A stretch of DNA of 64,000 bases from Rhizobium sp. BT03 (lineage in GTDB: Bacteria > Pseudomonadota > Alphaproteobacteria > Rhizobiales > Rhizobiaceae), in assembly GCF_030053155.1 (NCBI RefSeq), contig NZ_CP125641.1, forward strand, positions 434,001-498,000. Direction: 5' to 3'. The notes beneath the pieces were generated by a model. The model was not told the origin of the DNA and made no database searches. It was given only the letters and a program-made list of their open reading frames with translations. Every line of letters begins with the position of its first letter. Within the stretch, counting starts at the first letter, position 1. Shown here one piece after another: positions 14,626 to 38,965 of the stretch. Both the position numbers and the translations under genes were made by a program.

Positions 14626-15348
14626 CTACTTCGCGTAAAGCGCCCGCGAGCGTTCGAGGTGTTTGAGCAGCGCCATCTCCGAGCCGTCGACGTCGTTGGC
14701 TTCGAGGCGGTCGACGATTTCGTCGTGTTCGGCGAGCGTGAACTTTTCCTTGCCGGTCCAGATCAGCATCTCGGTATGATATTCCTTCAGCCAGGCAAGC
14801 ATCGCTTCGCTGACGGCGACATAGATCGGGTTACCGGAGATCTGGGCGATGCGGGTGTGAAATTCCATATCGGCGTCGATGAACGCTTCGGCCCGCCCGA
14901 GTGACATGCGCTGGTGCTCGATGATGGCCCTGAGGTCGGCGATGTCTTTTGCCGAGGCGCGCTGGGCGGCCTCGCGGGCCATGCCGCGCTCGAAGAAGAT
15001 GCGGGCGCTCTTTAAATGTTCGAGCGAGTCGGCCGATTGCGACAGCATGATCTTGGCGGTGAGATCGACCTGGCGGAAGATCGACTTTGCCGTCAGCCGC
15101 AAGACCTTTGCGCGCTCGCCGTGCGAAATGCTGACGAGACCCTTGTTGGCGAGCGACTGCATGGCCTCGCGGATTGCCGGCCGGCCGACGCCGAAGCGCT
15201 CCATCAGCACTCGCTCGGAGGGCATTTCATCGCCGGGCTGAAGCTCGCCTGAGGTGATCAGCCGCTCCAACCGATCAAACACTTCGTCGGAGAGTTTCCG
15301 GCGGACGATTTGTTCGATGGGCTGGGTCATGAGATCTCGCTGGCTCAA
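14626..15348 (-). CDS. GntR-family (FadR/NanR-like, FCD domain) regulator of the apiose/RLP locus
   Basis: A 240-residue regulator. The winged helix at about residues 13-75 includes LSDEVFDRLERLITSGEL, PSERVLMERFGVGRPAIREA and KGLVSISHGERAKV, closest in style to E. coli NanR. The C-terminal all-helical FCD effector domain carries the metal/ligand histidines in DADMEFHTRIAQ. A GGAGGAG site 5 bp upstream supports a TTG start; an ATG seven codons later (MTQP) is the alternative. It is divergent from the RuBisCO-like gene, and a motif near that promoter recurs before the oxidoisomerase gene, so it probably controls the catabolic operon in response to an intermediate. Confidence 0.88.
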   Translation of the reverse strand: MSQRDLMTQPIEQIVRRKLSDEVFDRLERLITSGELQPGDEMPSERVLMERFGVGRPAIREAMQSLANKGLVSISHGERAKVLRLTAKSIFRQVDLTAKIMLSQSADSLEHLKSARIFFERGMAREAAQRASAKDIADLRAIIEHQRMSLGRAEAFIDADMEFHTRIAQISGNPIYVAVSEAMLAWLKEYHTEMLIWTGKEKFTLAEHDEIVDRLEANDVDGSEMALLKHLERSRALYAK

Positions 15349-15441: not shown

Positions 15442-15454
15442 CTCATTATACCAG
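15442..15454. promoter_or_regulatory. Candidate GntR binding motif upstream of the RLP gene
   Basis: CTCATTATACCAG matches a motif at 19384 at 12 of 13 positions. On the other strand it contains GGTATA, the half-site recognised by E. coli NanR, the closest-looking relative of the adjacent regulator. It lies in the divergent promoter region. Binding is inferred, not shown. Confidence 0.5.
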
Positions 15455-15510: not shown

Positions 15511-16767
15511 ATGATGATTACCCTGACCTACCGCATCGAAACGCCCGGCAGCGTCGAGGCGATGGCGGAAAAGATCGCCAGCGACCAGTCGACCGGAACC
15601 TTCGTGCCGGTTCCCGGCGAGACCGAGGAGCTGAAATCGCGGGTCGCCGCCCGGGTGCTGGCGATCCGCCGGCTCGAGGATGGGCATCATCCGACCTGGC
15701 CGGAGGCGGCGCCCGGCACGCGGCTGCATCGCGCCGATGTCGACATCGGCTTCCCGCTTGAGGCGGTCGGCACCGATCTTGCCGCCCTGATGACCATTGC
15801 GATCGGCGGCGTCTATTCGATCAGGGGCATGACCGCCATCCGCATCGTCGACATGAAACTGCCGGATGCCTTCAAAGGCGCCCATCCCGGACCGCAATTC
15901 GGCATCCCCGGAAGCCGAAGGCTCACCGGCGTCGAAGGCCGGCCGATCATCGGCACGATCGTCAAGCCGGCGCTGGGCCTGAGGCCGAACGAGACGGCGG
16001 AACTGGTCGGCGAGTTGATCGCATCGGGCGTCGACTTCATCAAGGACGACGAGAAGCTGATGAGCCCGGCCTATTCGCCGCTCAAGGAGCGCGTCGCCGC
16101 GATCATGCCGCGCATTCTCGATCATGAGCAGAAGACCGGCAAGAAGGTGATGTATGCCTTCGGCATCTCGCATGCCGATCCCGACGAGATGATGCGCAAC
16201 CACGATATCGTCGCTGCGGCCGGCGGCAATTGCGCCGTCGTCAACATCAACTCGATCGGCTTCGGCGGCATGAGCTTCCTGCGCAAGCGCTCCAGCCTGG
16301 TGCTGCACGCGCATCGCAACGGCTGGGACGTGCTGACGCGCGATCCCGGCGCCGGCATGGACTTCAAGGTTTACCAGCAGTTCTGGCGGCTCTTGGGCGT
16401 CGACCAGTTCCAGATCAACGGCATCAGGGTCAAATATTGGGAGCCGGACGACAGCTTCGTCTCGTCCTTCAAGGCGGTCAGCGCGCCGCTCTTCGACGCC
16501 GCCGACCGGCCGCTTCCGGTCGCAGGCTCCGGCCAGTGGGGCGGGCAAGCGCCGGAGACCTATCAGCGCACCGGCCGCACCGTCGATCTCCTTTATCTCT
16601 GCGGCGGCGGCATCGTCAGCCATCCCGGCGGACCTGCGGCCGGCGTCCGCGCCGTGCAGCAGGCCTGGCAGGCCGCAGTCGCCGATATTCCGCTGGAGAC
16701 TTACGCCAAGGAACATCCGGAGCTTGCTGCCTCGATCGCAAAATTCAGCGATGGCAAGGGCGCATGA
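15511..16767 (+). CDS. oiaX: RuBisCO-like protein, 3-oxo-isoapionate-4-phosphate transcarboxylase/hydrolase type
   Basis: A 418-residue form IV RuBisCO homologue. An N-terminal alpha/beta domain precedes a TIM barrel. RuBisCO-type residues kept are Lys152 in IVKPALGL and the metal site Lys178-Asp180-Glu181 in GVDFIKDDE; HAHRNGWD at 266-273 and a loop with Lys308 in GIRVKYWEPDD are also seen. The GTIVKPALGL and NSIGFGG contexts differ from true RuBisCO. Next to the kinase and oxidoisomerase genes, the best match is the RLP that cleaves 3-oxo-isoapionate 4-phosphate to glycolate and 3-phosphoglycerate in bacterial apiose catabolism. It is the first gene of the operon and overlaps the kinase by ATGA. 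The family is certain; the exact reaction is inferred from context. Confidence 0.85.
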   Translation: MMITLTYRIETPGSVEAMAEKIASDQSTGTFVPVPGETEELKSRVAARVLAIRRLEDGHHPTWPEAAPGTRLHRADVDIGFPLEAVGTDLAALMTIAIGGVYSIRGMTAIRIVDMKLPDAFKGAHPGPQFGIPGSRRLTGVEGRPIIGTIVKPALGLRPNETAELVGELIASGVDFIKDDEKLMSPAYSPLKERVAAIMPRILDHEQKTGKKVMYAFGISHADPDEMMRNHDIVAAAGGNCAVVNINSIGFGGMSFLRKRSSLVLHAHRNGWDVLTRDPGAGMDFKVYQQFWRLLGVDQFQINGIRVKYWEPDDSFVSSFKAVSAPLFDAADRPLPVAGSGQWGGQAPETYQRTGRTVDLLYLCGGGIVSHPGGPAAGVRAVQQAWQAAVADIPLETYAKEHPELAASIAKFSDGKGA

Positions 16768-18110
16768 CCGTCATGAACGACCTTCTCGTCAGCTATTACG
16801 GGGATGATTTTACCGGCTCGACCGATGTCATGGAGGCGCTCGCTTCGCGCGGCGTCGAGACCGCCCTCTTCCTCGGTCTTCCCAAGCCGGAATTGGTCGC
16901 CCGCTTCAAACACTGCCGCGCGATCGGTATTGCCGGAACGAGCCGCAGCGAGACGCCGGCATGGATGGAACTGCATCTCGTGCCTGCCTTCGACTGGCTG
17001 CGCTCGCTCGGTGCGGCCATCTGCCATTACAAGGTTTGCTCGACCTTCGATTCCAGCCCTGGCATCGGCAATATCGGAAAGGCTATCGAAATCGGCGGCA
17101 AGATCTTCGGGCAGGCGATCGTCCCCGTCATCGTCGGCGCGCCGCAGCTGAAGCGCTACACGGCTTTCGGCAATCTCTTCGCAGCCTATCAGGGCCGCGT
17201 CTTCCGCATCGACCGCCATCCCGTCATGAGCCGCCATCCCGTCACCCCGATGGACGAGGCGGATCTTGGCGTTCATCTGTCGAAGCAGACCGCCCTTCCC
17301 GTGCTGCTTGCCGATCTCGTTGCGATCACGGCCGAGGATGCCGATCAGCGCATCGACGCGCTGGTGTCGAGCCCGGAGGGCATCCTGCTCCTCGACGTCG
17401 ATTCCGAAGCGACGCAGGCGGCCGCTGGCCGGCAGCTGCTGCGTGTCGCCGGCCGGTCCGGCAGCTTCGTCGCCGGTTCGTCCGGGGTCGAATACGCCCT
17501 GCTCGATGCATGGCGGCGGGCCGGCGTGATTGGCGAAAGCGGTGCCGTATTTCCCGATGTCGGCCCGGTCGAGCGGCTTGCCGTCGTCTCCGGCAGCGTC
17601 TCGCCGACGACCGAGCGGCAGATCCGCACCGCCGTCGAGAACGGTTTCGAGGCCATCGCGCTCGATCCGCTGGCGCTGGTTTCGGAGAATGGCGAAGGCG
17701 CAGTGGAGGCGGCGGCGCAGGCCGGCATCCGCAAGCTGAAAGAAGGCAAGAGCGTCATCCTCTATACGGCGCTCGGCCCCTCCGCTGACCGCGGTGCCGA
17801 TATCGACCGGCTTCCGGGCGCCCGCCATCGGCTCGGCAGCGCGCTCGGCACGATCCTGCGGCGGCTGATCGAAGCGGAAGGGCTATCGCGCGCGGTCGTC
17901 GCTGGTGGCGACACGTCGAGCCACGCGCTGCGGCAATTGAAGATCGACGCGCTGACGACGCTGCTGCCATTGCCCCAGACGCCGGGCTCGCCGCTCTGCC
18001 TCGCGCATGGCGACTATCCGCCGACCAACGGCCTGCAGGTCGCGCTGAAAGGCGGCCAGGTCGGAACGGACGGCTATTTCGCGCAGATCCGCGATGGAAG
18101 GAAAAGCTGA
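16764..18110 (+). CDS. oiaK: Four-carbon acid sugar kinase family (DUF1537), 3-oxo-isoapionate kinase type
   Basis: A 448-residue protein with both halves of the four-carbon acid sugar kinase family. The N-terminal sugar-binding domain opens with SYYGDDFTGSTDVMEALASR. The C-terminal nucleotide-binding domain has AVVSGSVSPTTERQI, VVAGGDTSSHAL and a terminal VGTDGYFAQI. It starts in an ATGA overlap with the RLP gene, which strongly suggests that the two act in sequence. The expected role is phosphorylation of 3-oxo-isoapionate at C4 to make the RLP substrate. Other family members act on threonate, erythronate or 3-oxo-tetronates, so the substrate assignment rests on the neighbourhood. Confidence 0.85.
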   Translation: MTVMNDLLVSYYGDDFTGSTDVMEALASRGVETALFLGLPKPELVARFKHCRAIGIAGTSRSETPAWMELHLVPAFDWLRSLGAAICHYKVCSTFDSSPGIGNIGKAIEIGGKIFGQAIVPVIVGAPQLKRYTAFGNLFAAYQGRVFRIDRHPVMSRHPVTPMDEADLGVHLSKQTALPVLLADLVAITAEDADQRIDALVSSPEGILLLDVDSEATQAAAGRQLLRVAGRSGSFVAGSSGVEYALLDAWRRAGVIGESGAVFPDVGPVERLAVVSGSVSPTTERQIRTAVENGFEAIALDPLALVSENGEGAVEAAAQAGIRKLKEGKSVILYTALGPSADRGADIDRLPGARHRLGSALGTILRRLIEAEGLSRAVVAGGDTSSHALRQLKIDALTTLLPLPQTPGSPLCLAHGDYPPTNGLQVALKGGQVGTDGYFAQIRDGRKS

Positions 18111-18913
18111 TGGTCGTCTGGGTCGGCACCAGTTTCAAGATGAACAAGACGGTGGAGGAAGCGCTCGCTTTCGCGCACCGCCTCGCAGCGACGGATGCGG
18201 AACGCGATACCCGCGTGCAGCGCTTCGTCATCCCCGCCTTTACTGCGGTGCGCGAAGTCAAGCGCGTGCTTTCCGAGACCTCGGTGAAGGTCGGTGCCCA
18301 GAACATGCATTGGGAGGATGCCGGCGCCTGGACCGGCGAGATTTCGGCCTTGATGCTGAAGGACTGCGAGCTCGATATCGTCGAGCTCGGCCATTCCGAG
18401 CGCCGCGAGCATTTCGGCGAGACCGACGAAGCCGTCGGCCTCAAGGTTTCCGCCGCGCTCCGTCATGGCCTGACGCCGCTGATCTGCATCGGCGAAACCT
18501 TGCAGGAACGCCAAAAGGGGCGGGCCGATGCCGTTTTGCGGCGCCAGGTCGAGGCCGCCTTGCGGGGCATCGACACCGAGGCCGACAAGGCTCCGATCCT
18601 GCTTGCCTATGAGCCTGTCTGGGCGATCGGCGCCAACGGCATTCCGGCGACGGCCGACTATGCGTCGGAACGACACGGAAGGATCGCCGAGCTGGCGAGA
18701 TCCATTCTCGGCCATGCGGTGCCGGTTCTCTACGGCGGCAGCGTCAATCCCGACAATTGCGAGGAACTGGTGACGCAGGCGCATATCGACGGCCTGTTCA
18801 TTGGCCGCTCTGCCTGGTCCGTCGACGGTTATCTCGACATTCTCGGCCGCGTCAGCGCGGCGATCTACCGCTCATCCCCACGCCAGACGGCGAGCGAAAG
18901 GAAACTGCCATGA
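18110..18913 (+). CDS. lerI: Triosephosphate isomerase-like protein, probable L-erythrulose-1-phosphate isomerase
   Basis: A 267-residue TIM-barrel protein with the triosephosphate isomerase catalytic set: Lys10 in GTSFKMNKT, His95 in ELGHSERRE and Glu168 in AYEPVWAIG, plus the phosphate loop [19 protein letters not shown] in place of the NWKMN of housekeeping TpiA is typical of tetrulose-phosphate isomerases (LerI, EryH). Its start overlaps the kinase stop by 1 bp and its stop overlaps the RpiB-like gene. Tandem LerI-DerI pairs convert L-erythrulose 1-phosphate to D-erythrulose 4-phosphate and then D-erythrose 4-phosphate, which is my preferred role. An ordinary second TpiA cannot be excluded. 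Confidence 0.75.
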
Positions 18914-19356
18914 AGATCGCAATTGGGGCGGACAGCGCCGGCAAACCGCTATTGGATGTCATTGCCGCCCATCTCGCCGGCAAGGCGGACCTCGAAGTTC
19001 ACGATCTCAGCCAGTCCGGCTTTTATGCCGATCTTTCCCAGCGTCTGGCGCAGACGATCGTCGACGGCGAACACCAGCGCGGCATTCTGTTCTGCGGCAC
19101 CGGCATCGGCGTGTGCATTTCGGCAAACAAGGTGCCTGGTATTCGCGCCGCACTCACCCACGACACCTATTCGGCCGAACGCGCGGCGAAATCGAACAAC
19201 GCCCAGATCATCACGATGGGCGCGCGCGTCATCGGGCCGGAACTGGCGAAATCGATCGTCGACGTCTGGCTCGCCTCGGAATTCGACCCTGATGGCCCAT
19301 CGGCCGGCAATGTCGAGGCGATCGACCGGCTCGACGCCGAAAAACACGGGTCTTGA
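18910..19356 (+). CDS. derI: RpiB/LacAB-family sugar-phosphate isomerase, probable D-erythrulose-4-phosphate isomerase
   Basis: A 148-residue RpiB-fold isomerase. Conserved features are [11 protein letters not shown] at the N-terminus, the active-site loop [16 protein letters not shown] with Cys62, and the [18 protein letters not shown] segment. It starts in an ATGA overlap with the TIM-like gene. RpiB relatives paired with TIM relatives act on four-carbon sugar phosphates (DerI, EryI). That pairing, plus the DhaK/DhaL-type kinase near 28498, suggests conversion of D-erythrulose 4-phosphate to D-erythrose 4-phosphate. A ribose-5-phosphate role is the alternative. Confidence 0.75.
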
Positions 19357-19383
19357 ACAACTAAATAGTGATATGGTGATTGA

Positions 19384-19396
19384 CTCATCATACCAG
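19384..19396. promoter_or_regulatory. Second copy of the candidate GntR motif, inside a promoter
   Basis: CTCATCATACCAG, nearly identical to the motif at 15442. It begins at the end of a possible -35 box TTGACT (19380-19385) and lies before a possible -10 box (CATATT, 19405-19410), so a bound repressor would block the promoter. It implies that the oxidoisomerase-transporter segment has its own promoter under the same regulator. Confidence 0.5.
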
Positions 19397-19433
19397 TACG
19401 TGATCATATTCAGACGGAAAAGATGAGGAAAAC

Positions 19434-21279
<1,846 letters not shown>

Positions 21280-21288
21280 TCAGCACCA

Positions 21289-21322
21289 ATTGCGGAGGGT
21301 GCAGCGTTGCGCCCTCCGCAAT
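21289..21322. repeat. Intercistronic hairpin after the binding-protein gene
   Basis: ATTGCGGAGGG at 21289-21299 is exactly complementary to CCCTCCGCAAT at 21312-21322. It starts 9 bp after the stop of the binding-protein gene and lacks a good T-run, as expected for a 3' protecting hairpin or a leaky attenuator inside an ABC operon. Confidence 0.6.
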
Positions 21323-21352
21323 GCATTTTGCAAGACGTCGAGGTTCACCCGC

Positions 21353-21993
21353 ATGTTGAGAATGAAGGGCGCCCTGGTTGCTGCCATCGTGGCGGCGGCC
21401 CTGCCCGGTTGCAAGATCATCAAGACGCCGACCGCTGAGGAAAAAGCGGCTGAAGTGGCCAAGACCGCCTTCGATCCGAATGCCAAGGTCGAGGCGATCT
21501 GGCAGCCTCAAGTCGTGCCCTATTTCGAAAAGCGCGCCGGCGAGCTGAAGGACATCATGCAGCTCGTTGCCACGAGCCCCGATGCCGCGGGCGAAAAATA
21601 CGGCAATCCGCGCAAGCAGAGCAGTTCGCCCTGGACCTATGCGGTGAAGATCACCGGCAAGGTCGTCGCGGCCGATACGGCCTCGCGCGCGGCGACGCTC
21701 GATGTCGATGCCGATGGCGACGGAAAGGCCGATGCGAAGGTGCAGATCGGCCCGGCGCTGCGCGGCACGGCACTGCGCGACACGCTCGATTTCGTCAATT
21801 TCAACGAGTTCAAGAACCAGATCGAATGGGCGCAGTTCGGCAAGGCGTTCAACGAGAAGGCCAATACCGCCTTCCTCTCCGCCGTCCCGCGCGACGGTCT
21901 TGCCGGCAAGACGGTAACGGTGATCGGCGCCTTTCCGCTGCCGAAAAGCGGCGAGCTGCCGCTCGTCACACCTTCGGAACTGAAGGTGGGCTC

Positions 21994-21997
<4 letters not shown>
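21353..21997 (+). CDS. DUF2291-family lipoprotein of the sugar importer operon
   Basis: A 214-residue protein. The signal peptide ends in a lipobox (ALPGC, Cys20), so it is probably a membrane-anchored periplasmic lipoprotein. The rest matches the DUF2291 family, found beside RbsA/RbsC-type transporters: VVPYFEKRAGELKDIM, PWTYAVKITGKVVAAD and DFVNFNEFKNQIEW. The ATG before LRMKG was chosen because it places the signal peptide at the N-terminus. Its stop overlaps the ATPase start by ATGA. The family has no well-established function; a role in sugar uptake is inferred from the conserved context. Confidence 0.8.
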
Positions 21998-23540
<1,543 letters not shown>

Positions 23541-23544
<4 letters not shown>

Positions 23545-24605
23545 TGGCGGCTACCTCAACCACTCTTGCGCCGAAGGGCGCCAACGGCTCGGCGCTTCTG
23601 ACGCTGATGAAGCTCAGGACTTTCATCGCGCTTTTCGCCGTCATCATCTTCTTCGCGATCTTCGCACCGAACTTCACCTCGACGGCGAACATGATCCTGA
23701 TGTCGAAGCATGTGGCGCTGAACGCCTTCCTGGCGATGGGCATGACCTTCGTCATCATCACCGGCGGCATCGACCTTTCGGTCGGCTCGATCGTCGGGCT
23801 TTGCGGCATGGTCGCGGGCGGGCTGATCCTCTACGGCATCGAACTGCCGATCGGCTACACCATCTATTTCAACCTCTTCGAGATCGTGCTGATCACGCTG
23901 TCGATCGGCCTTATCATCGGCCTGATCAACGGTCTCTTGATCACCAAGCTCAACGTCGCGCCCTTCATCGCCACGCTCGGCACGCTCTATATCGCCCGCG
24001 GCCTGGCGCTGCTGTCCTCGGACGGCCAGACCTTTCCGAACCTCGTCGGCCGGCCGGAATACGCCACCACCGGCTTCGACTTCTTCGGCGCCGGCCGCAT
24101 TCTCGGCTTGCCGGTGTCGATCTGGATCCTGATCGTGCTGGCGCTCGCGGCTGCCTATGTCGCGCGTTCGACGCCGATCGGCCGCCACATCTTCGCCGTC
24201 GGCGGCAATGAGCGGGCGGCGCGCATGTCCGGCATCCGCGTCGATCTCGTGAAAATCTTCGTCTACATGTTCTCCGGCCTTTGCGCGGCGATCGTCGGCG
24301 TCGTCATCTCCTCGGAGCTGATGGCCGCCCATCCGGCGACCGGCGAAAGCTTCGAGCTCAATGCGATCGCCGCAGCGGTGCTCGGCGGCACCTCGATGTC
24401 GGGTGGGCGCGGCACGATCGGCGGCACGATCATCGGCGCCTTCGTCATCGGCATCCTCTCCGACGGGCTTGTCATGATGGGCGTCTCCTCCTTCTGGCAG
24501 ATGGTCATCAAGGGCCTCGTCATCATCATCGCCGTGGTCGTCGACCAGGCGCAGCGCCGCCTGCAGCAGCGCGTCACCCTCATGCAGATGGCAAAGGCGG
24601 GTTGA
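23541..24605 (+). CDS. Ribose-type sugar ABC importer permease (RbsC-like)
   Basis: A 354-residue integral membrane protein with about 8-10 hydrophobic segments. Family signatures are FVIITGGIDLSVGSIVGL, LNVAPFIATLGTLYIARGLAL and ELNAIAAAVLGGTSMSGGRG, the last typical of RbsC-type permeases. It overlaps the ATPase gene and is followed after 1 bp by the dehydrogenase gene, tying the importer to the first oxidation step. Confidence 0.95.
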
Positions 24606-24606
24606 C

Positions 24607-25641
24607 ATGAGCGGATTGAAAGGCGCGTTGATCGGCTGCGGCTTCTTTGCGATCAACCAGATGCATGGCTGGAACGATGTCGACGGTGCCGAGATCGTCG
24701 CCATCTGCGACCGCGATCCCGAGCGGCTGAAGCTCGTCGGCGACCAGTTCGGCATCGAGCGGCGCTACAGCGATGCCGGGGCGATGTTTGCCGATGGCGG
24801 CTTCGATTTCGTCGATATCGCCACGACAGTTCAGAGCCACCGCGCCCTGGTGGAAATGGCCGCTCGAAACAGGGTGCCGGCCATCTGCCAGAAGCCTTTC
24901 GCCAGGACGCTGGCGGATGCCAAGGCGATGGTCGAAGCCTGCCGCGCTGCCGGCGTGGCGCTGATGGTGCACGAGAATTTTCGCTGGCAGACGCCGATCC
25001 AGGCGGTGCGCAAGGCGCTCGATGTGGGCGCCATCGGCACGCCCTTCTGGGGCCGCTTCTCCTTCCGCTCGGGCTACGACGTCTTTTCCGGCCAGCCCTA
25101 TCTCGCCGAAGGCGAGCGCTTCATCATCGAGGACCTCGGCATCCATACGCTCGATATCGCCCGCTATATCCTCGGCGACGTCAGCGCGCTGACCGCCCGC
25201 ACCAAGCGGGTCAACCCCAGGATTAAGGGCGAGGATGTCGCGACCATCCTGCTCGATCACGAAAACGGCGCGACCTCCGTCGTCGATGTCAGCTACGCCA
25301 CCAGGCTCTCGAAGGAGCCCTTCCCCGAGACGCTGATCGAACTCGACGGCTCCGAAGGCACGATCCGGCTCAGCCAGGGCTACGGCCTGGAGATCACCAA
25401 CGGCAAGGGCACGACCGTCATGGATGTCTCGCCGAAGCTGCTGTCCTGGGCCTCGCGGCCCTGGCACAACATCCAGGAAAGCGTCTATGCGATAGAGCAG
25501 CATTGGGTCGACCAGCTCAGGCGCGGCGCGGAGCACTCGACCTCGGGCGCCGACAATCTGAAGACCTTCGCCCTCGTCGAGGCCGCCTATGACAGCGCCG
25601 CGCGCGGTCAGACGATCGATATCAGGGCTCTGCTGCGATGA
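24607..25641 (+). CDS. apsD: Gfo/Idh/MocA-family dehydrogenase, D-apiose dehydrogenase type
   Basis: A 344-residue oxidoreductase. The N-terminal Rossmann domain begins with LKGALIGCGFFAINQMHGW, and AICQKPFARTLADAKAMV carries the family EKP-like motif as QKP. The C-terminal domain has EDLGIHTLDIARYILGDV with the conserved HxxD region. It would oxidise the imported sugar, D-apiose, to apionolactone using NAD(P). It lies 1 bp from the permease gene and overlaps the lactonase gene by 4 bp, so import, oxidation and lactone hydrolysis are encoded in a row. Family membership is sure; apiose is inferred from the cluster. Confidence 0.82.
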   Translation: MSGLKGALIGCGFFAINQMHGWNDVDGAEIVAICDRDPERLKLVGDQFGIERRYSDAGAMFADGGFDFVDIATTVQSHRALVEMAARNRVPAICQKPFARTLADAKAMVEACRAAGVALMVHENFRWQTPIQAVRKALDVGAIGTPFWGRFSFRSGYDVFSGQPYLAEGERFIIEDLGIHTLDIARYILGDVSALTARTKRVNPRIKGEDVATILLDHENGATSVVDVSYATRLSKEPFPETLIELDGSEGTIRLSQGYGLEITNGKGTTVMDVSPKLLSWASRPWHNIQESVYAIEQHWVDQLRRGAEHSTSGADNLKTFALVEAAYDSAARGQTIDIRALLR

Positions 25642-27512
25642 CCGCCGATGCGTTCCAGCTCTACGGCACCCGCGCTGCGGAAAGGCCGCCGGTCCGCCTG
25701 ACGGCGGGAAAGCTGACGGCCGATCTCGCCGACGGCAACCTTCGTACGATCCGCTACGACGGTGTCGAGGTGCTGCGGGCGATTTCCTATCTCGTCCGCG
25801 ACCGGGACTGGGGCACCTACAGCCCTGACATCGCCGATCTCAGGATCGAACAGGGCGAGGATCGGTTCGAGGTGACTTATCTCGCTCGCTGCCAGGGACC
25901 TGATGAGACGACGCTCGTCATCGAGGTCCGCATCAGCGGCAATCAGGACCGGCTCGATTTCGAGGCCGAAGCCCGGAGCGGAACCGGCTTCGAGACCAAT
26001 CGCTGCGGCTTCTGCATCCTGCATCCGATCGTCGGCGTTGCCGGTTCGCCGGCAGCGGTCGAACATGTCGACGGCCAGATCGCGGCGACGCGTTTTCCCA
26101 ATGTCATCGAGCCGTGGCAGCCCTTCAAGGACATGCGCGCCATCACCCATCAGGTCATGCCTGATGTAAGCGCGGAATGCCGGATGGAGGGTGACACCTT
26201 CGAAATGGAGGACCAGCGCAACTGGTCCGATGCCTCCTACAAAACCTATGTCAGGCCGCTCGCCTTGCCCTGGCCTTACCGGATCCCGGCCAACCAGCCC
26301 GTCCGGCAGAAGACGTCGCTCATCATCACGGATATCAGCCGCTCCGTTGCGCCGCCAGCCGCGACGCAGAGCGGAGCCATAAGGCTCGAACGCGGCGCGC
26401 GGACCGGCACCATGCCCGATATCGGCGTGATCGTTACGCCCGAGGAGGCCGAGGCGACGCGCGCGGCCGCGTTCCTCCTGTCGGAGATCGCGCCCAAGGA
26501 ACTGCTCTTCCATTTCGATCCCGATGCCGGGCACGGCCTCGACGCGCTGAAAAACTTCGCGGAGATCGCTGCTCTCCATCGCGGTCGCTTGACGCTGGAG
26601 ATCGCGCTCCCCTGCAAATCGTCGCCGGCGGGCGAGGCGGCCGGGATCGCCCGGCAGATGCAGCAGGCGGGCTTCAAGCCCGACGCGATCCTGATTTCGC
26701 CCTCCGTCGACCGGCAATCGACGCCGCCCGGCAGCAAATGGCCGGACTGCCCTCCGCTCGATGAGGTCTACGCCGCAGCCCGCGCCGCCTTCTCCGGCAT
26801 TCGCATCGGCGGCGGCATGCTCAGCTATTTCACCGAGCTCAACCGCAAGCGCGTGCCGGCGGACGAGATCGATTTCGTCAGCCATTGCACCAACCCGATC
26901 GTGCACGCGGCCGACGATCTCAGCGTCATGCAGACACTGGAAGCGCTGCCCTTCATCACGCGCTCCGTCCGTGCGATCTACGGCGACAAGCCCTATCGCA
27001 TCGGTCCGTCGACGATCCCGATGCGGCAGAATCCCTATGGCAGCCGCACGATGGACAATCCCGCCAGTGGACGCATTCCGATGGCCAACCGCGACCCCCG
27101 CCACAACGGCCGTTTCGCCGAGGCCTTCGCGCTCGGCTATGCGATCCGGGTGCTGGAGGCCGGTCTCGAATGCCTGACGCTTTCGGCGCTGACCGGTCCT
27201 TTCGGGTTGGTCGCAGGTCGCGATGAGCCGGTCGCGCAAGGCGGGCGGCGGCCGCTCTTCAACACGGTGCGGACCTTGTCGGCGCTGGCGGGTGCATCCT
27301 GGCAGGAATGCCTCTCGTCTTCGCCCTCCGAAGTTCTGTCGTTTGTGGCGCGGGATGCCGCAGGCGCCAAGCTTTATGTGGTCAATCTCACAGGCGAAGA
27401 GCGAAGGGTCGGCGGCAGCGCACTGGCCGAAGAGCTGCGGCTCGCGCCCTTCGCGACGGCCGCCTTGCCGCTAGAACAGGATGATTTTAGGCCCGGTTGG
27501 CCTAAAATCTGA
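25638..27512 (+). CDS. apnL: D-apionate lactonase-type protein
   Basis: A 624-residue protein resembling ApnL, which opens apionolactone to D-apionate. There is no signal peptide and no close similarity to common lactonases such as SMP-30. Visible landmarks include TAGKLTADLADGNLRTIRY, DFEAEARSGTGFETNRCGFC, HPIVGVAG, a YFTELNRKR stretch and FVSHCTNPIVHAADD, the last two giving a glycosidase-like TIM-barrel feel. It begins in an ATGA overlap with the dehydrogenase gene. The last dozen codons and the stop lie inside a large palindromic repeat (27472-27523), so the C-terminal tail DDFRPGWPKI is probably repeat-derived. The assignment rests mainly on gene order. Confidence 0.75.
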   Translation: MTADAFQLYGTRAAERPPVRLTAGKLTADLADGNLRTIRYDGVEVLRAISYLVRDRDWGTYSPDIADLRIEQGEDRFEVTYLARCQGPDETTLVIEVRISGNQDRLDFEAEARSGTGFETNRCGFCILHPIVGVAGSPAAVEHVDGQIAATRFPNVIEPWQPFKDMRAITHQVMPDVSAECRMEGDTFEMEDQRNWSDASYKTYVRPLALPWPYRIPANQPVRQKTSLIITDISRSVAPPAATQSGAIRLERGARTGTMPDIGVIVTPEEAEATRAAAFLLSEIAPKELLFHFDPDAGHGLDALKNFAEIAALHRGRLTLEIALPCKSSPAGEAAGIARQMQQAGFKPDAILISPSVDRQSTPPGSKWPDCPPLDEVYAAARAAFSGIRIGGGMLSYFTELNRKRVPADEIDFVSHCTNPIVHAADDLSVMQTLEALPFITRSVRAIYGDKPYRIGPSTIPMRQNPYGSRTMDNPASGRIPMANRDPRHNGRFAEAFALGYAIRVLEAGLECLTLSALTGPFGLVAGRDEPVAQGGRRPLFNTVRTLSALAGASWQECLSSSPSEVLSFVARDAAGAKLYVVNLTGEERRVGGSALAEELRLAPFATAALPLEQDDFRPGWPKI

Positions 27513-27523: not shown

Positions 27524-27535
27524 AATTAAAGAGTT

Positions 27536-27585
27536 AGAGCATGATGTCGTCCGAAAACCGCTCACACTTTTCGGCATCATGCTCT
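27536..27585. repeat. Rhizobial intergenic palindrome (AGAGCATGATG...CATCATGCTCT)
   Basis: AGAGCATGATG at 27536-27546 pairs with CATCATGCTCT at 27575-27585, and the inner parts CCGAAAA and TTTTCGG also pair. I recognise this as a palindrome dispersed in Rhizobium intergenic regions. The IS5-type element inserted at its right edge. Confidence 0.7.
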
Positions 27586-27586
27586 A

Positions 27587-28430
27587 GGAGTCGTGGACTC
27601 TTGGGATTCCCAAAGGTGAGCAAATCAGATTCAAGACTGTCTTTTGGAGGCAGTCATGGGTGTTTTAGATCGTCTCATTCTTCGAGATGACCAGTGGGAG
27701 CGGATGTCTCGCCATATCATTGGCGACGATCGCACGCGCGGTTCGTCTGGACGTGACAATCGCATGTTTGTGGAAGCGGTCTTGTGGATCGTGCGGACGG
27801 GTTCGCCCTGGCGCGATCTGCCGGAGGTGTTCGGTGATTGGAACAGCGTGTTTCGCCGCTTCAGCCGCTGGAGCCAAAAGGGTGTCTGGTGGCGTGTCTT
27901 TGAGGCGATGTCGGAGGATACCGACTTCGAATATCTGATCGTCGACAGCACTATTATTCGCGCCCACCAGCACGCCTCCGGCGCAAAAAAGGGGCTGAAG
28001 ATCAGGCCCTTGGCCGTTCCCGCGGCGGCTTGAGCACCAAAATCCATATGGCCGTGCGTGGCCTTGGATGTCCCGTTCGTTTCATCCTGACCGCCGGTCA
28101 GAAAGGCGATGCACCGCAAGCCGATCTCCTGATCGAAGACCTGCCAGCCGAGGTCGTCATGGCCGATACGGCCTACGACAGCGACCGGCTACGCAAACTC
28201 ATTGCCGACAAGGGCGCGCAAGCGGTCATCCCGAACAATCCCTCGCGTGCCAAGAAGTATCCGCTCGACAAGCAACTCTATGCTCAGCGTTATCTCATCG
28301 AATGCTGCTTCTCGAAGCTCAAGCAGTTTCGACGCATCGCCACACGATATGAGAAAACCGTTCGAAACTACAAAGCCATGATCGCTCTGGCCGCCACAAT
28401 CCTATGGCTCAGATAAGTGTCCACAGCTCC
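27587..28430 (+). mobile_element. IS5-family (IS427-like) insertion sequence, 844 bp
   Basis: The ends are imperfect inverted repeats: GGAGTCGTGGACTCTT at the left, and GGAGCTGTGGACACTT reading inward from the right. TA dinucleotides at 27585-27586 and 28431-28432 flank the element, as expected for the 2-bp target duplication of the IS427 group. It contains one transposase split over two frames. It separates the lactonase gene from the DhaK-type kinase gene and so divides what was probably one catabolic operon. Confidence 0.88.
27656..28416 (+). CDS. IS5-family transposase produced by a -1 frameshift
   Basis: The first frame (125 aa if unshifted, ending at 28033) begins MGVLDRLILRDDQWERM behind a GGAGG site and carries the first catalytic Asp in LIVDSTIIRAHQHASGAKKG. 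The second frame supplies STKIHMAV, the second Asp in VMADTAYDSD and the Glu in YLIECCFSKLKQFRR. A slippery AAAAAAG at 27985-27991 lies exactly where a -1 shift joins GAKKG to the family continuation AEDQALGRSRGG. No other damage is seen, so the element may be active. This arrangement is common in the IS427 group. Confidence 0.88.
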
Positions 28431-28497
28431 TAGCGGATTGACCTCCGGCCCGCCCGCCGCATCTATTCAGTCGGAGCTTGTTCAGGGGAGGATCGGC

Positions 28498-29502
28498 GTG
28501 AAGACGAAGAAGCTTATCAATGCAGGCGCGGATGCCGTCGATGAGATGCTGCAGGGCGTTCTCGCGGCGCATCCCGAGCACCTCCATGCCGTGGACGGCG
28601 TGCCGCGCGCCATCATTGCCAGGAACGGCCCGCGCAAGGGCAAGGTCGGGCTGGTGATCGGCGGCGGATCCGGGCATGAGCCGACATTCCTCGGCTATGT
28701 CGGCAAGGGGCTCGCCGATGCCGCCGCGATCGGCAATGTCTTCGCCTCGCCGCCGCCCGATCCGATCATGGCCTGCGCCATGGCCGTCGACGGCGGCGTC
28801 GGCGTGCTTTTCATGTACGGCAACTATGCCGGCGACGTCATGAACTTCGACATGGCCGCGGAAATGCTGGCGCTCGACGATATCGCGGTGCGCACCGTGC
28901 TCACCACCGACGATGTCGCGTCCGCGCCCGCCGATCAGAAGGACAGGCGGCGCGGCGTGGCCGGCAATGTCTTCATCTTCAAGGCCGCCGGCGCTGCCTG
29001 CGATCTTCTCTATTCCTTCGACGAGGTCGAGCGCGCCGCCCGCCACGCTAATGCGCGCACCTATACGATGGGCGTGGCGCTTTCGCCCTGCTCGCTGCCC
29101 CAGACCTTGAAGCCGAACTTCCAGATCGGCGAGGAGGAGATGGAGATCGGCATGGGCATCCACGGCGAGCCCGGCGTGGCGCGCGGGCCGCTTGGAACGG
29201 CCGATGCGGTGACCGACGAACTGATGGACAATCTTCTCCAGGAGATGAAAGCCGAGCGGGGCGATCGTGTCGCCGTGCTCGTCAACTCGCTCGGCTCCAC
29301 GCCGATGATGGAGCTCTACATCATGATGCGGCGCGTCAAGGCGCGGCTCGACGAGGCCGGGCTCGTCATCCATACCTCGCTCGTCGGCAATTACTGCACC
29401 TCGCTCGAAATGGCAGGCGCCTCCATCACGCTCATGCATCTCGACGACGAGCTTCAGCGGCTGATCGACCATCCCTGCGACTGCGCCATGTTCAGGAGGT
29501 GA
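28498..29502 (+). CDS. Dihydroxyacetone kinase subunit DhaK-like, probable L-erythrulose kinase subunit
   Basis: A 334-residue DhaK-domain protein. GLVIGGGSGHEPTFLGYVG and MYGNYAGDVMNFDMA form the substrate site, and the covalent substrate-binding His222 is in MGIHGEPG. Translation starts at GTG behind AGGGGAGG, 66 bp right of the IS end. It works with the DhaL-type subunit encoded next. Because a LerI/DerI-like isomerase pair is encoded upstream in the same locus, the likely substrate is L-erythrulose (or another tetrulose) rather than dihydroxyacetone; this is inference. No phosphotransferase DhaM gene is near, so ATP is the likely phosphate donor. Confidence 0.85.
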   Translation: MKTKKLINAGADAVDEMLQGVLAAHPEHLHAVDGVPRAIIARNGPRKGKVGLVIGGGSGHEPTFLGYVGKGLADAAAIGNVFASPPPDPIMACAMAVDGGVGVLFMYGNYAGDVMNFDMAAEMLALDDIAVRTVLTTDDVASAPADQKDRRRGVAGNVFIFKAAGAACDLLYSFDEVERAARHANARTYTMGVALSPCSLPQTLKPNFQIGEEEMEIGMGIHGEPGVARGPLGTADAVTDELMDNLLQEMKAERGDRVAVLVNSLGSTPMMELYIMMRRVKARLDEAGLVIHTSLVGNYCTSLEMAGASITLMHLDDELQRLIDHPCDCAMFRR

Positions 29503-29505
29503 TCG

Positions 29506-30153
29506 ATGCCGATCGAGACCAAAGACCTGCAGCATCTCTTTGCCCTGATCGCCGCCGATATCGCGGCGCATCGCGACCATCTCTGCGAGCTGGACGGCGC
29601 GATCGGCGACGGCGATCACGGCCTTGCCATGGATGCCGGCTGTGAGGCCGCGGCCAAGGCGGTCGCAGCACTCGACCCCGCGCAGGCTGCGCCGACAGCC
29701 GTCTTCAACGCGGCGGCAAAGGCATTCCTGAATGCGGTCGGCGCATCCTCCGGCCCGCTCTATGCCACCGCTTTCATGCGCGCCGGCGCCGCCGTCAAGG
29801 ACAGGCCGGACCTCGCGGACGAGGAGTTTGTGCGCGCTTTCGCGGCGATGGCTGCGGGCATTCAAGAGCGCGGCAAGGCCGAGCCCGGCGAAAAGACCAT
29901 GGTCGATGCCTGGAAGCCCGCGGCCGATGCGGCGTCTGATGCCTGGGCATCGGGAGCTTCCCTCCTCGAATGTTTCGATCTGGCCGAGCGGGCGGCGCGC
30001 CAGGGCTGCGAAGCGACCAAGGATATGACGGCGGCCAAGGGGCGGGCGTCGCGGTTGGGAGAACGGGTGATCGGCCACATCGACCCCGGCGCGGCATCGG
30101 CCGCGATCGTCATCGCTGCCATAACCAATTTCGTTCGAGACGCGGATGGCTAG
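29506..30153 (+). CDS. Dihydroxyacetone kinase subunit DhaL-like
   Basis: A 215-residue all-helical nucleotide-binding subunit. CELDGAIGDGDHGLAMDAGC carries the Asp residues that hold Mg-nucleotide, and ASSGPLYATAFMRAG and GEKTMVDAWKPA are the family loops. It lies 3 bp after the DhaK-type gene. In two-subunit ATP-dependent kinases this protein delivers phosphate to the ketose held by DhaK. It ends the catabolic locus. Confidence 0.88.
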   Translation: MPIETKDLQHLFALIAADIAAHRDHLCELDGAIGDGDHGLAMDAGCEAAAKAVAALDPAQAAPTAVFNAAAKAFLNAVGASSGPLYATAFMRAGAAVKDRPDLADEEFVRAFAAMAAGIQERGKAEPGEKTMVDAWKPAADAASDAWASGASLLECFDLAERAARQGCEATKDMTAAKGRASRLGERVIGHIDPGAASAAIVIAAITNFVRDADG

Positions 30154-35340: not shown

Positions 35341-36877
35341 AGCCTGTGAATGTTTTGTGGCGGTGTCGATGGGATTGTGATTCTGTTGGGTGGTTGATTT
35401 GCTTGGGGGATGATGGTGAGCGACGAGCTGTTCGAAGGATTGCCGGTGCATGGATCGCAGCGCAGTGCTCAGGCGGGGCGCGGGGCGGCGCGCATGCGCG
35501 AGCCGGTGCGCGATCAGATCGAGTTGCGTGCCGTGGATATCGACAGCTTGATCGGCCAGGATCACGCGGTGCGCGTGATTTGGAGCTATGTCGAGGGACT
35601 GGATCTGAGCGCGCTTGAAGATCGGATCAAAGCGCGTGAGCAGCGGCCGGGCCATCCGCCGATTTCGCCACGGCTTTTGCTGGCGCTGTGGCTCTATGCC
35701 AGCAGCGATGGCGTCGGCAGTGCGCGGGCGCTGGAACGGCTGTGCGGGAGCCACGACGTCTATCGCTGGCTGTGCGGCGGCGTCTCGGTGAACTATCACA
35801 CGCTGTCGGATTTTCGGGTTGGTTGCGCCGATCTGCTCGACCGGCTGCTGGCCGAGCATCTGGCGGCGCTTGCCGATGCCGGCCTCGTCGCTTTCGATAA
35901 TTTGGCGCAGGATGGCGTGCGGGTCCGGGCGAGCGCGGGTGCCGCCTCGTTCGGCCGCAAGGCGACGCTTGATCGGCATCTTTCCATTGCCGAGGCGGTT
36001 GTGGATCAGCTCAAGCGCGAGGTCGATGCGCGTTCGGATGCCAGCACTCGGCGCATCGAGGCTGCCAGGCAACGAGCGGCGCGTGAGCGCGGCGAGCGGC
36101 TCAGAGCAGCCAAGGCCGCTCTTGACGAGATTCAGCGCCATCGCCAAGCGCGCGAAGAAAAGCGCGGCAATGGCAAAAAGCCGAAGGAGCCGCGCGCCTC
36201 CAGCACGGATGCGCAGGCGCGGGTGATGAAGATGGCCGACGGCGGCTTCCGTCCGGCTTATAATGTGCAGGTTGCGAGCACCGCCGGCGAGCAGTTCGTG
36301 GTCGGGCTCGAGGTGACCAATGCCGGCTCCGATCGCGGCCTCATGCGGCCGATGCTGGAGCGGTTGCGCGCGCTGAGCGGCCATCTGCCGCGCCGCTATC
36401 TCGCCGATGGCGGCTTTTGCAGCGCTGAAGATATCGAGTGGGCGCACGGCGAAGGGGTCGAGGTCTTTTGTCCGCCCACGCAGTCCAAACACGGAACCGA
36501 TCCCTTCTTGCCGCGGCGCGGCGACGGTGCGGGTGTGTCAACCTGGCGGACCCGCATGGGAAGCGAGACGGGCAAGGCTCAGTACAAACCCCGCTCGATC
36601 TGCGAATGCATCCATGCCCGCTGGCGCAACTGGAATCTGCGACAATTGACGGTGCGCGGCATCGAAAAGGTCCAGGCCGTCGTGCTCTGCTACGCACTCA
36701 CCAACAATATCCTGCAAGGCCATCGGCTTGCCAATGGCTAAACCAGGGCAATCACCCTGACGCCAACACGCGACCATCAAAACGCACCGCGTAATCGGCT
36801 AACGCTCGATGGCATCGGCCAGCCAAGACCAGCCAACACTGGCCTGAAACGCACAAGATTCAAAAGCTTCACAAGCT
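35341..36877 (+). mobile_element. IS1182-type insertion sequence, copy 1 (1,537 bp)
   Basis: The ends are related inverted repeats: AGCCTGTGAATGTTTT at the left, and AGCTTGTGAAGCTTTT reading inward from the right. A 5-bp direct repeat CTCAG flanks it (35336-35340 and 36878-36882). The target is the stem-loop of a RIME-like repeat. It carries one full-length transposase gene. Copy 2 at 37429-38965 has the same length, lies in inverted orientation and differs at only a few positions that I could find. Confidence 0.9.
35410..36741 (+). CDS. IS1182-family transposase, copy 1
   Basis: A 443-residue intact DDE-type transposase. The N-terminal part has HPPISPRLLLALWLYASSDG and HDVYRWLCGGVSVNYHTLSDFR, typical of IS1182/IS1380-like N-terminal domains. 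A long Arg/Lys-rich helical insertion follows at about 195-265 (ERGERLRAAKAALDE). The DDE core comes after VMKMADGGFRPAYNVQ, with YLADGGFCSAEDIE, and a C-terminal ICECIHARWRNWNLRQL and VLCYALTNNIL. No stop or frameshift interrupts it. Confidence 0.9.
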   Translation: MMVSDELFEGLPVHGSQRSAQAGRGAARMREPVRDQIELRAVDIDSLIGQDHAVRVIWSYVEGLDLSALEDRIKAREQRPGHPPISPRLLLALWLYASSDGVGSARALERLCGSHDVYRWLCGGVSVNYHTLSDFRVGCADLLDRLLAEHLAALADAGLVAFDNLAQDGVRVRASAGAASFGRKATLDRHLSIAEAVVDQLKREVDARSDASTRRIEAARQRAARERGERLRAAKAALDEIQRHRQAREEKRGNGKKPKEPRASSTDAQARVMKMADGGFRPAYNVQVASTAGEQFVVGLEVTNAGSDRGLMRPMLERLRALSGHLPRRYLADGGFCSAEDIEWAHGEGVEVFCPPTQSKHGTDPFLPRRGDGAGVSTWRTRMGSETGKAQYKPRSICECIHARWRNWNLRQLTVRGIEKVQAVVLCYALTNNILQGHRLANG

Positions 36878-37428: not shown

Positions 37429-38965
37429 AGCTTGTGAAGCTTTTGAATCTTGTGCGTTTCAGGCCAGTGTTGGCTGGTCTTGGCTGGCTGATGCCATCGA
37501 GCGTTAGCCGATTACGCGGTGCGTTTTGATGGTCGCGTGTTGGCGTCAGGGTGATTGCCCTGGTTTAGCCATTGGCAAGCCGATGGCCTTGCAGGATATT
37601 GTTGGTGAGTGCGTAGCAGAGCACGACGGCTTGGACCTTTTCGATGCCGCGCACCGTCAATTGTCGCAGATTCCAGTTGCGCCAGCGGGCATGGATGCAT
37701 TCGCAGATCGAGCGGGGTTTGTACTGAGCCTTGCCCGTCTCGCTTCCCATGCGGGTCCGCCAGGTTGACACACCCGCACCGTCGCCGCGCCGCGGCAAGA
37801 AGGGATCGGTTCCGTGTTTGGACTGCGTGGGCGGACAAAAGACCTCGACCCCTTCGCCGTGCGCCCACTCGATATCTTCAGCGCTGCAAAAGCCGCCATC
37901 GGCGAGATAGCGGCGCGGCAGATGGCCGCTCAGCGCGCGCAACCGCTCCAGCATCGGCCGCATGAGGCCGCGATCGGAGCCGGCATTGGTCACCTCGAGC
38001 CCGACCACGAACTGCTCGCCGGCGGTGCTCGCAACCTGCACATTATAAGCCGGACGGAAGCCGCCGTCGGCCATCTTCATCACCCGCGCCTGCGCATCCG
38101 TGCTGGAGGCGCGCGGCTCCTTCGGCTTTTTGCCATTGCCGCGCTTTTCTTCGCGCGCCTGGCGATGGCGCTGAATCTCGTCAAGAGCGGCCTTGGCTGC
38201 TCTGAGCCGCTCGCCGCGCTCACGCGCCGCTCGTTGCCTGGCAGCCTCGATGCGCCGAGTGCTGGCATCCGAACGCGCATCGACCTCGCGCTTGAGCTGA
38301 TCCACAACCGCCTCGGCAATGGAAAGATGCCGATCAAGCGTCGCCTTGCGGCCGAACGAGGCGGCACCCGCGCTCGCCCGGACCCGCACGCCATCCTGCG
38401 CCAAATTATCGAAAGCGACGAGGCCGGCATCGGCAAGCGCCGCCAGATGCTCGGCCAGCAGCCGGTCGAGCAGATCGGCGCAACCAACCCGAAAATCCGA
38501 CAGCGTGTGATAGTTCACCGAGACGCCGCCGCACAGCCAGCGATAGACGTCGTGGCTCCCGCACAGCCGTTCCAGCGCCCGCGCACTGCCGACGCCATCG
38601 CTGCTGGCATAGAGCCACAGCGCCAGCAAAAGCCGTGGCGAAATCGGCGGATGGCCCGGCCGCTGCTCACGCGCTTTGATCCGATCTTCAAGCGCGCTCA
38701 GATCCAGTCCCTCGACATAGCTCCAAATCACGCGCACCGCGTGATCCTGGCCGATCAAGCTGTCGATATCCACGGCACGCAACTCGATCTGATCGCGCAC
38801 CGGCTCGCGCATGCGCGCCGCCCCGCGCCCCGCCTGAGCACTGCGCTGCGATCCATGCACCGGCAATCCTTCGAACAGCTCGTCGCTCACCATCATCCCC
38901 CAAGCAAATCAACCACCCAACAGAATCACAATCCCATCGACACCGCCACAAAACATTCACAGGCT
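37429..38965 (-). mobile_element. IS1182-type insertion sequence, copy 2 (1,537 bp, inverted)
   Basis: Same length and ends as copy 1 in the opposite orientation, flanked by CTGAG at 37424-37428 and 38966-38970, the complement of CTCAG. Differences from copy 1 are few: a CAA/CAG change in the QAREEK codon region, another near the 3' end of the transposase gene, and one in the non-coding tail. This points to recent transposition or ongoing gene conversion. Confidence 0.9.
37565..38896 (-). CDS. IS1182-family transposase, copy 2
   Basis: A 443-residue protein that appears identical in sequence to copy 1, with the nucleotide differences I found in the gene being silent. All landmarks (WLYASSDG, the Arg/Lys-rich helical insertion, YLADGGFCSAEDIE, VLCYALTNNIL) are intact, so both copies could supply transposase. 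Opposite orientation and 551 bp of separation allow inversion of the intervening repeat segment by homologous recombination. Confidence 0.9.
   Translation of the reverse strand: MMVSDELFEGLPVHGSQRSAQAGRGAARMREPVRDQIELRAVDIDSLIGQDHAVRVIWSYVEGLDLSALEDRIKAREQRPGHPPISPRLLLALWLYASSDGVGSARALERLCGSHDVYRWLCGGVSVNYHTLSDFRVGCADLLDRLLAEHLAALADAGLVAFDNLAQDGVRVRASAGAASFGRKATLDRHLSIAEAVVDQLKREVDARSDASTRRIEAARQRAARERGERLRAAKAALDEIQRHRQAREEKRGNGKKPKEPRASSTDAQARVMKMADGGFRPAYNVQVASTAGEQFVVGLEVTNAGSDRGLMRPMLERLRALSGHLPRRYLADGGFCSAEDIEWAHGEGVEVFCPPTQSKHGTDPFLPRRGDGAGVSTWRTRMGSETGKAQYKPRSICECIHARWRNWNLRQLTVRGIEKVQAVVLCYALTNNILQGHRLANG

Follow-up and report, generated by a model that had tools for sequence, protein, structure and literature searches.

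D-Apiose catabolism through a RuBisCO-like protein (RLP) has been described by Carter et al. (2018, Nat Chem Biol 14:696), as cited in PMC6302742. PMC6302742 reports that the RLP of Agrobacterium radiobacter K84 (OiaX type) decarboxylates 3-oxo-isoapionate 4-phosphate, and that the RLP of Xanthobacter autotrophicus (OiaT type) transcarboxylates/hydrolyses the same compound. We have analysed a stretch of 64,000 nucleotides of Rhizobium sp. BT03 (contig NZ_CP125641.1, positions 434,001 to 498,000; hereafter the window), in which eleven intact, co-directional genes run from oiaX to apnL. It is very probable that these genes form an operon for D-apiose catabolism that is self-contained and of the OiaX, i.e. 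decarboxylase, kind, in a Rhizobium without a match to the erythritol gene eryC, and that the carbon is led to erythrose 4-phosphate. The pathway kind is already known and the locus adds another case on its OiaX branch. The K84 D-apiose pathway of Carter and co-workers is said to use the same enzyme families as the operon in the window.

Like the K84 enzyme, the window RLP is predicted to decarboxylate 3-oxo-isoapionate 4-phosphate. The operon has its own lerI-derI isomerase genes, whereas in the two Rhizobium rhizogenes genomes compared (L040 and L056) the pair is missing from the apiose locus and is found elsewhere, within about 5 kb of eryC. OiaT-type pathways use the same RLP substrate, and their kind of RLP shares a related kinase and the metal site with the window. 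They differ in that the RLPs keep the RuBisCO residues that are altered in OiaX, in that lerI or derI is nearby in 0 of 20 loci and in their end products. The rhizobial erythritol locus, eryABCD-eryR-tpiB-rpiB, contains in tpiB-rpiB a counterpart of lerI-derI of the window (R. johnstonii 3841, locus L150). That locus begins from erythritol, whereas the pathway in the window would arrive at the isomerases from RLP decarboxylation, and the host genome has no eryC match. In Rhodobacteraceae strain LCG007, which grows on D-apiose, ApnL, ApsD, ApnO, OiaK and OiaX are annotated as in the window (PMC11747546); the strain belongs to a different family from Rhizobium, and the accessible text of that paper does not mention LerI or DerI.

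The RuBisCO-like protein

For comparison we took the loci of the best 80 among 441 RLP relatives, nearly all of them from Rhizobiales, and 20 loci with transcarboxylase-like RLPs served as a second group. The nearest RLPs among the best 80 are 96% identical to that of the window and come from R. phaseoli (L002) and R. lentis (L004); the host, with a genome of 6.9 Mb, is a Rhizobium near these two species. RLPs nearest to the window protein carry the NCBI name OiaX. Scores on the OiaX model split clearly among 398 phylum-wide genomes, with seven at 772–786 bits (the window included), 20 at 379–472 bits and the rest at 145 bits or below. In a 38-row RLP tree the 15 OiaX rows, that of the window among them, group together with 100/100 support and are separate from both transcarboxylase-like RLPs and RuBisCO. 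For this tree and for that of the kinase, 14 of 86 OiaX loci were drawn besides the window. Second-group RLPs form no clade of their own in the RLP tree and have long branches. The window RLP is 37–47% identical to the 20 second-group proteins and sits in a different clade from them. Among 120 listed relatives of one second-group RLP (L121), seven are named 3-oxoisoapionate-4-phosphate transcarboxylase/hydrolase (JGI) and most of those with a name bear that of RuBisCO. The second group may be mixed, since an RLP of the D-hamamelose pathway has also been cited. One genome, G055, holds both an OiaX operon (L138) and a second-group RLP (L131), the latter about 15 kb from oiaX and with its own GntR-type gene.

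Active-site residues were compared in an alignment of 87 OiaX rows (84 distinct, as L136, L137 and L140 repeat L039, L007 and L033), the 20 second-group RLPs and seven RuBisCO-type matches. The RuBisCO metal site is conserved, as the original prediction held: the carbamate lysine K178 and the acidic ligands D180 and E181 are kept in all 87 OiaX rows. K152, K178, D180, E181, H266, H268, R269 and K308 are invariant across all three groups. Five positions (25, 100, 299, 301 and 339) are occupied by D, G, Q, Q and G in the OiaX rows, apart from a single row with C at 339, and by E, N, H, H and S in the second group (20/20) and the RuBisCO-type proteins. The window RLP departs from the full RuBisCO active site with D25, G100, A154, Q301 and G339. 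We take the equivalents of the five positions in spinach RuBisCO to be Glu60, Asn123, His325, His327 and Ser379; the residue corresponding to A154 is presumably Lys177. From these residues we infer that OiaX retains the enediolate-forming machinery and that the altered positions are ones that deal with the carboxylated intermediate and with its hydrolysis, which would fit plain decarboxylation. Residues D25, G100, Q299, Q301 and G339 make a short list that separates the decarboxylase RLP group from the transcarboxylase-like one.

Two isomerases in the operon

The original prediction called the route complete. The enzymes that it listed are present, but lerI and derI, which lie inside the operon, had been passed over. 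Because OiaX is predicted to decarboxylate and two isomerases follow, the carbon route is two enzymes longer than listed. LerI gives 376 bits to PDB entry 11ef, named L-erythrulose-1-phosphate isomerase, against 183 bits to the next entry, an ordinary triose-phosphate isomerase (TIM). DerI exceeds the cut-off of its own NCBIfam model (Table 1) and is the sole match of its Pfam family in the host genome.

Both genes are near OiaX in 30 of the 80 loci and near transcarboxylase-like RLPs in 0 of 20. Where a local pair exists it is placed between oiaK and apnO in 26 of 30 loci. The association extends beyond the locus: DerI is over its cut-off in 47 of 49 OiaX genomes searched (46 of the 49 have no local copy, and 44 of these 46 have it elsewhere) and in 4 of 43 genomes without OiaX, one of the four being among the 16 that have an RLP of the second group. 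LerI matches of at least 275 bits occur in 26 of 28 OiaX genomes in which the gene is not local, as compared to 2 of 12 genomes without OiaX.

An assignment of LerI and DerI as ordinary triose- and ribose-5-phosphate isomerases was considered and rejected: the genome has another TIM elsewhere, which is likely the glycolytic one, DerI is over its own cut-off, and LerI is nearest to the erythrulose-phosphate enzyme in PDB. LerI may have an extra role in triose-phosphate isomerisation, and DerI may also act as RpiB.

Link to erythritol catabolism

According to PMC3599248, the rhizobial erythritol locus includes an eryR-tpiB-rpiB unit and R. etli has no erythritol locus. In R. johnstonii 3841 (L150, on an 870-kb replicon) a lerI-derI-type pair lies about 3 kb from a presumed eryC, a label given by eye from the place of the gene in the ery-type locus; the apiose locus of this strain (L020) has no lerI-derI. 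EryC was searched for in the window genome and in all 80 locus genomes, and the host genome gave no match. Where eryC is absent, the lerI-derI pair is local in 18 genomes (the window included) and not local in two (L062 and L074). Where eryC is present, 13 genomes have a local pair and 48 have none (Fisher p 6e-8, and 1e-7 when the window is left out, kinship not being removed). Genomes that can draw on the isomerases of an erythritol locus tend to lack the pair at the apiose locus, and genomes that cannot usually have it there. On this reading, rhizobia that lack an erythritol locus would hold a lerI-derI of their own in the apiose operon and the others would use the erythritol copy, a rule on how apiose and erythritol catabolism share enzymes in root-nodule bacteria that can be put to the test. 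A literature search returned no title pointing to the sharing of lerI-derI; most subscription journals were outside its coverage and we claim no priority.

We tentatively suggest, as a combined reading that is slightly less probable than its opposite, that lerI-derI is an exchangeable module where two pathways (apiose catabolism with its RLP decarboxylation, and the oxidation of erythritol) meet at L-erythrulose 1-phosphate, that DhaKL, encoded downstream of apnL, is an L-erythrulose kinase providing a third entry, and that the five substitutions at RuBisCO catalytic positions mark a shift from transcarboxylation/hydrolysis to plain decarboxylation.

Alternatively, LerI and DerI could serve a polyol or tetrulose pathway (for erythritol, or for L-erythrulose together with DhaKL) and merely share the locus. 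The equivalent pair is indeed tpiB-rpiB of rhizobial erythritol loci (PMC3599248; L150), and DhaKL-type genes stand beside the pair in several loci. However, with no eryC match in the host genome and with the usual position of the pair between oiaK and apnO, such a separate role is unlikely. Use of LerI-DerI in apiose and in polyol/tetrulose pathways can be compatible, and the two are not exclusive.

Gene set, remaining enzymes and importer

The named genes are present, intact and in the order originally claimed (Table 1): RLP, DUF1537 kinase, TIM homologue, RpiB homologue and PGDH_C oxidoisomerase are followed by the importer (sugar-binding protein (SBP), DUF2291 lipoprotein, ABC ATPase and permease), a Gfo/Idh/MocA dehydrogenase and a 624-residue lactonase. 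Their overlapping arrangement applies to six of the ten junctions, and the remaining four have gaps of 1, 76, 77 and 82 bases. The gene set is not a product of chance, because it scores 247 bits on Pfam RuBisCO_large, 1060 bits on the ApnL and 781 bits on the OiaX model and is shared by most of the 80 loci. Among these, the regulator is present in 80, the kinase and the oxidoisomerase in 79 each, the dehydrogenase and the lactonase in 78 each, the binding protein in 72, LerI in 30 and DerI in 33. The 20 second-group loci have the kinase in 18, the oxidoisomerase in six, the lactonase in two and the dehydrogenase, LerI and DerI in none; one of the six oxidoisomerases (L131) is really that of the neighbouring OiaX operon L138.

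Table 1. Features of the apiose locus and its surroundings in the window, with the function assigned from the listed match
Feature	Position	Strand	Basis
GntR/FCD regulator, NanR subfamily	14626-15348	-	NF003011 361 bits, cut-off 260; Pfam GntR + FCD
Operator-like site TCATTATACCAG before oiaX	15443-15454	+	pattern match
oiaX–apnL operon	15511-27512	+	eleven genes, intact, co-directional
oiaX, RuBisCO-like 3-oxo-isoapionate-4-phosphate decarboxylase	15511-16767	+	NF042437 780.8 bits, cut-off 700
oiaK, DUF1537 3-oxo-isoapionate kinase	16764-18110	+	NF042436 467.5 bits, under cut-off 700
lerI, TIM-barrel L-erythrulose-1-phosphate isomerase	18110-18913	+	PDB 11ef 376 bits
derI, RpiB-type D-erythrulose-4-phosphate isomerase	18910-19356	+	NF051858 256.9 bits, cut-off 240
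Operator-like site TCATCATACCAG before apnO	19385-19396	+	pattern match
apnO, probable D-apionate oxidoisomerase	19434-20261	+	Pfam PGDH_C 240 bits; PDB 5t57 449 bits
Sugar-binding protein (SBP)	20338-21279	+	PDB 5ibq/4ry0 608/606 bits; next 213 bits
DUF2291 periplasmic lipoprotein	21362-21997	+	PF10054 207.5 bits
Importer ATPase (CUT2/ribose type)	21994-23544	+	xylose, ribose, arabinose ATPase models 476-515 bits
Importer permease	23541-24605	+	ribose permease model 272.8 bits, under cut-off 398
apsD, D-apiose dehydrogenase (Gfo/Idh/MocA)	24607-25641	+	PDB 5uhw family 635.6 bits
apnL, D-apionate lactonase, 624 aa	25638-27512	+	NF049900 1059.8 bits, cut-off 750
IS5-family insertion, transposase in two frames	27584-28433	+	NF033580 124.7 bits, cut-off 110
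dhaK-dhaL, dihydroxyacetone-kinase-type pair	28498-30153	+	DhaK TIGR02363, DhaL TIGR02365

OiaK is the best family for the kinase, the next model giving 162 bits. On the NCBIfam OiaK model five kinases tested from other OiaX loci score 463–478 bits, and none of ten other RLP-linked kinases tested, two of them from R. rhizogenes, reaches the cut-off (304–582 bits). The model may have been built on another kinase clade. In the kinase tree the window protein groups, at 100/100 support, with the kinases of 14 further OiaX loci. RLP and kinase thus both belong to clades of OiaX loci, which agrees with the subfamilies originally proposed. The ApnO assignment rests on position, on the fold family and on PDB 5t57, which is filed under another name. 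The match of the dehydrogenase to PDB 5uhw extends over 343 residues, and the next chain gives 86 bits. None of the 25 families listed for the importer ATPase is matched above its own cut-off. PDB 4ry0, one of the two entries closest to the SBP, is RHE_PF00037 of R. etli CFN 42. Predicted structures of ApsD and of the SBP were poor, with a mean predicted local distance difference test score (pLDDT) of 49 and 51, respectively (7-row alignments). Overall, the family matches support the earlier assignment of OiaX, OiaK, ApnO, ApsD, ApnL and the importer to D-apiose well.

Regulator and operator-like sites

A GntR/FCD regulator gene is divergent from the operon and occurs in 80 of the 80 OiaX loci; it is a probable repressor of the operon. 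The window has two copies of the pattern TSATYATACCAG, one ahead of oiaX and one ahead of apnO, against 0.02 expected; the 6.9-Mb genome has four, against one match for the reversed control. A shorter core of the pattern is present in 75 of 83 distinct gntR-oiaX gaps, and 65 of 82 distinct loci have it in the 200 bp ahead of apnO, with 10 other matches in 1.73 Mb of the same loci. In L135, L138 and L139, where oiaX and apnO head separate units, there is a site ahead of each. The site before oiaX includes the reverse complement of GGTATA, and that before apnO has a version of it changed at one base. The third match in the genome lies inside an open frame resembling trmD (named by eye). The fourth (L147, G000:C1:3224200) has another GntR/FCD-like gene on one side and a sugar-binding-protein-like gene on the other, both recognised by eye.

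Proposed pathway and its alternatives

Gene families, gene order, clades, co-occurrence and linkage, and the motif were established directly here; every reaction, the identity of the sugar and the repression are inferred. The importer would take up D-apiose, which ApsD would oxidise to D-apionolactone, and ApnL would open the lactone to D-apionate. By oxidation and isomerisation ApnO would then form 3-oxo-isoapionate, to be phosphorylated at O4 by OiaK. OiaX would convert 3-oxo-isoapionate 4-phosphate via a metal-stabilised enediolate into L-erythrulose 1-phosphate and CO2. LerI and DerI would lead L-erythrulose 1-phosphate through D-erythrulose 4-phosphate to D-erythrose 4-phosphate, which could enter the pentose-phosphate pathway. 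The divergent NanR-type repressor may control both halves of the operon through a shared operator.

Glycolate and 3-phosphoglycerate had been predicted as the end products of the operon. These are the products of the transcarboxylase/hydrolase RLP (OiaT) and do not belong to OiaX. With CO2 and erythrose 4-phosphate as the predicted products instead, different mutant phenotypes are to be expected. Could the RLP still be an OiaT-like transcarboxylase/hydrolase giving glycolate and 3-phosphoglycerate, with the isomerases as bystanders? The substrate is one on which OiaT-type RLPs act as well (PMC6302742), these RLPs adjoin related kinases in 18 of 20 loci, G055 has an RLP of each group within about 15 kb, and the second group is no clade in the tree. 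However, the glycolate outcome is rejected on the basis of the split in OiaX-model scores, the 100/100 OiaX clade, the five positions that are changed in 87 of 87 OiaX rows and RuBisCO-like in 20 of 20 second-group rows, and the linkage and co-occurrence of the isomerases, so that an OiaT-like RLP is very improbable. Just as improbable is the same chemistry on another nutrient, i.e. another branched substrate such as D-hamamelose, or apionate alone: an RLP oxygenase of the D-hamamelose pathway is cited in PMC10176493 and the D-apiose specificity of ApsD and SBP is deduced from sequence, but ApnL is over its cut-off, ApsD is nearest to PDB 5uhw and the OiaX-type strain LCG007 grows on D-apiose (PMC11747546).

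There are also several observations that weigh against the D-apiose operon of the OiaX kind as we describe it. The families were originally said to be precisely named, which by curated cut-off is true of OiaX and ApnL only. The kinase is below the NCBIfam OiaK cut-off (467 of 700), as are the OiaX-linked kinases of R. rhizogenes, and in the NCBIfam profile search no fitting name was found for ApnO and no name of its own for ApsD. The same search gave no LerI-named match for LerI, which NCBIfam files under triose-phosphate isomerase (423.5 bits, cut-off 293). That PDB 5uhw is a D-apiose dehydrogenase, that 5ibq is an apiose complex and that relatives of the SBP handle apiose is assumed here. 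Locus L029 (Paramesorhizobium deserti) has gntR and oiaX (91%), and no further gene of the pathway lies within 10 kb. In L070 (a 3.1-Mb assembly) and L074 OiaX is present and neither lerI nor derI was found genome-wide. As for the sharing rule, 13 genomes have eryC and a local lerI-derI together, and the Fisher test ignores kinship; yet each label needs about nine changes on a quick 80-row tree. The end product of erythritol catabolism is given as dihydroxyacetone phosphate in PMC3599248, and therefore the roles of LerI and DerI on erythrulose phosphates are taken from the names of the model and of the PDB entry. The case for the operators is less strong than it appears: the site before oiaX has a single GGTATA repeat, which is the repeat of Escherichia coli NanR, and NanR binds a single repeat poorly (PMC8012715). 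The pattern core is not specific to OiaX, because it is also present in 6 of 20 second-group loci; one of the six, L131, has it by way of the OiaX operon next to it.

Region downstream of apnL

The IS5-family element separates apnL from dhaK and ends about 65 bases ahead of the dhaK start, for which we chose the GTG at 28498. Read by eye, its ends are imperfect terminal repeats flanked by CTAG. DhaK (385.6 bits) is just under its cut-off of 406, and DhaL (190.7 bits) is over its cut-off of 138. In 8 of the 80 loci dhaKL relatives adjoin lerI-derI (L021, L024, L051 and L054) or directly follow apnL (L066, L068, L072 and L073), the DhaK proteins at those loci being 75–86% identical. In L138 the dhaKL relatives come after derI on the same strand. 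It is plausible that DhaKL is an L-erythrulose kinase feeding the same node; a literature search on L-erythrulose kinase found no paper, and no reference sequence so named emerged.

Just 3' of apnL there is a 15-base inverted repeat with a 22-base loop (27535-27586), a possible terminator or intergenic repeat. Further along the window two transposase-like open reading frames of 443 aa (35410-36741 and 37565-38896) have the same translation and lie in opposite orientation about 0.8 kb apart.

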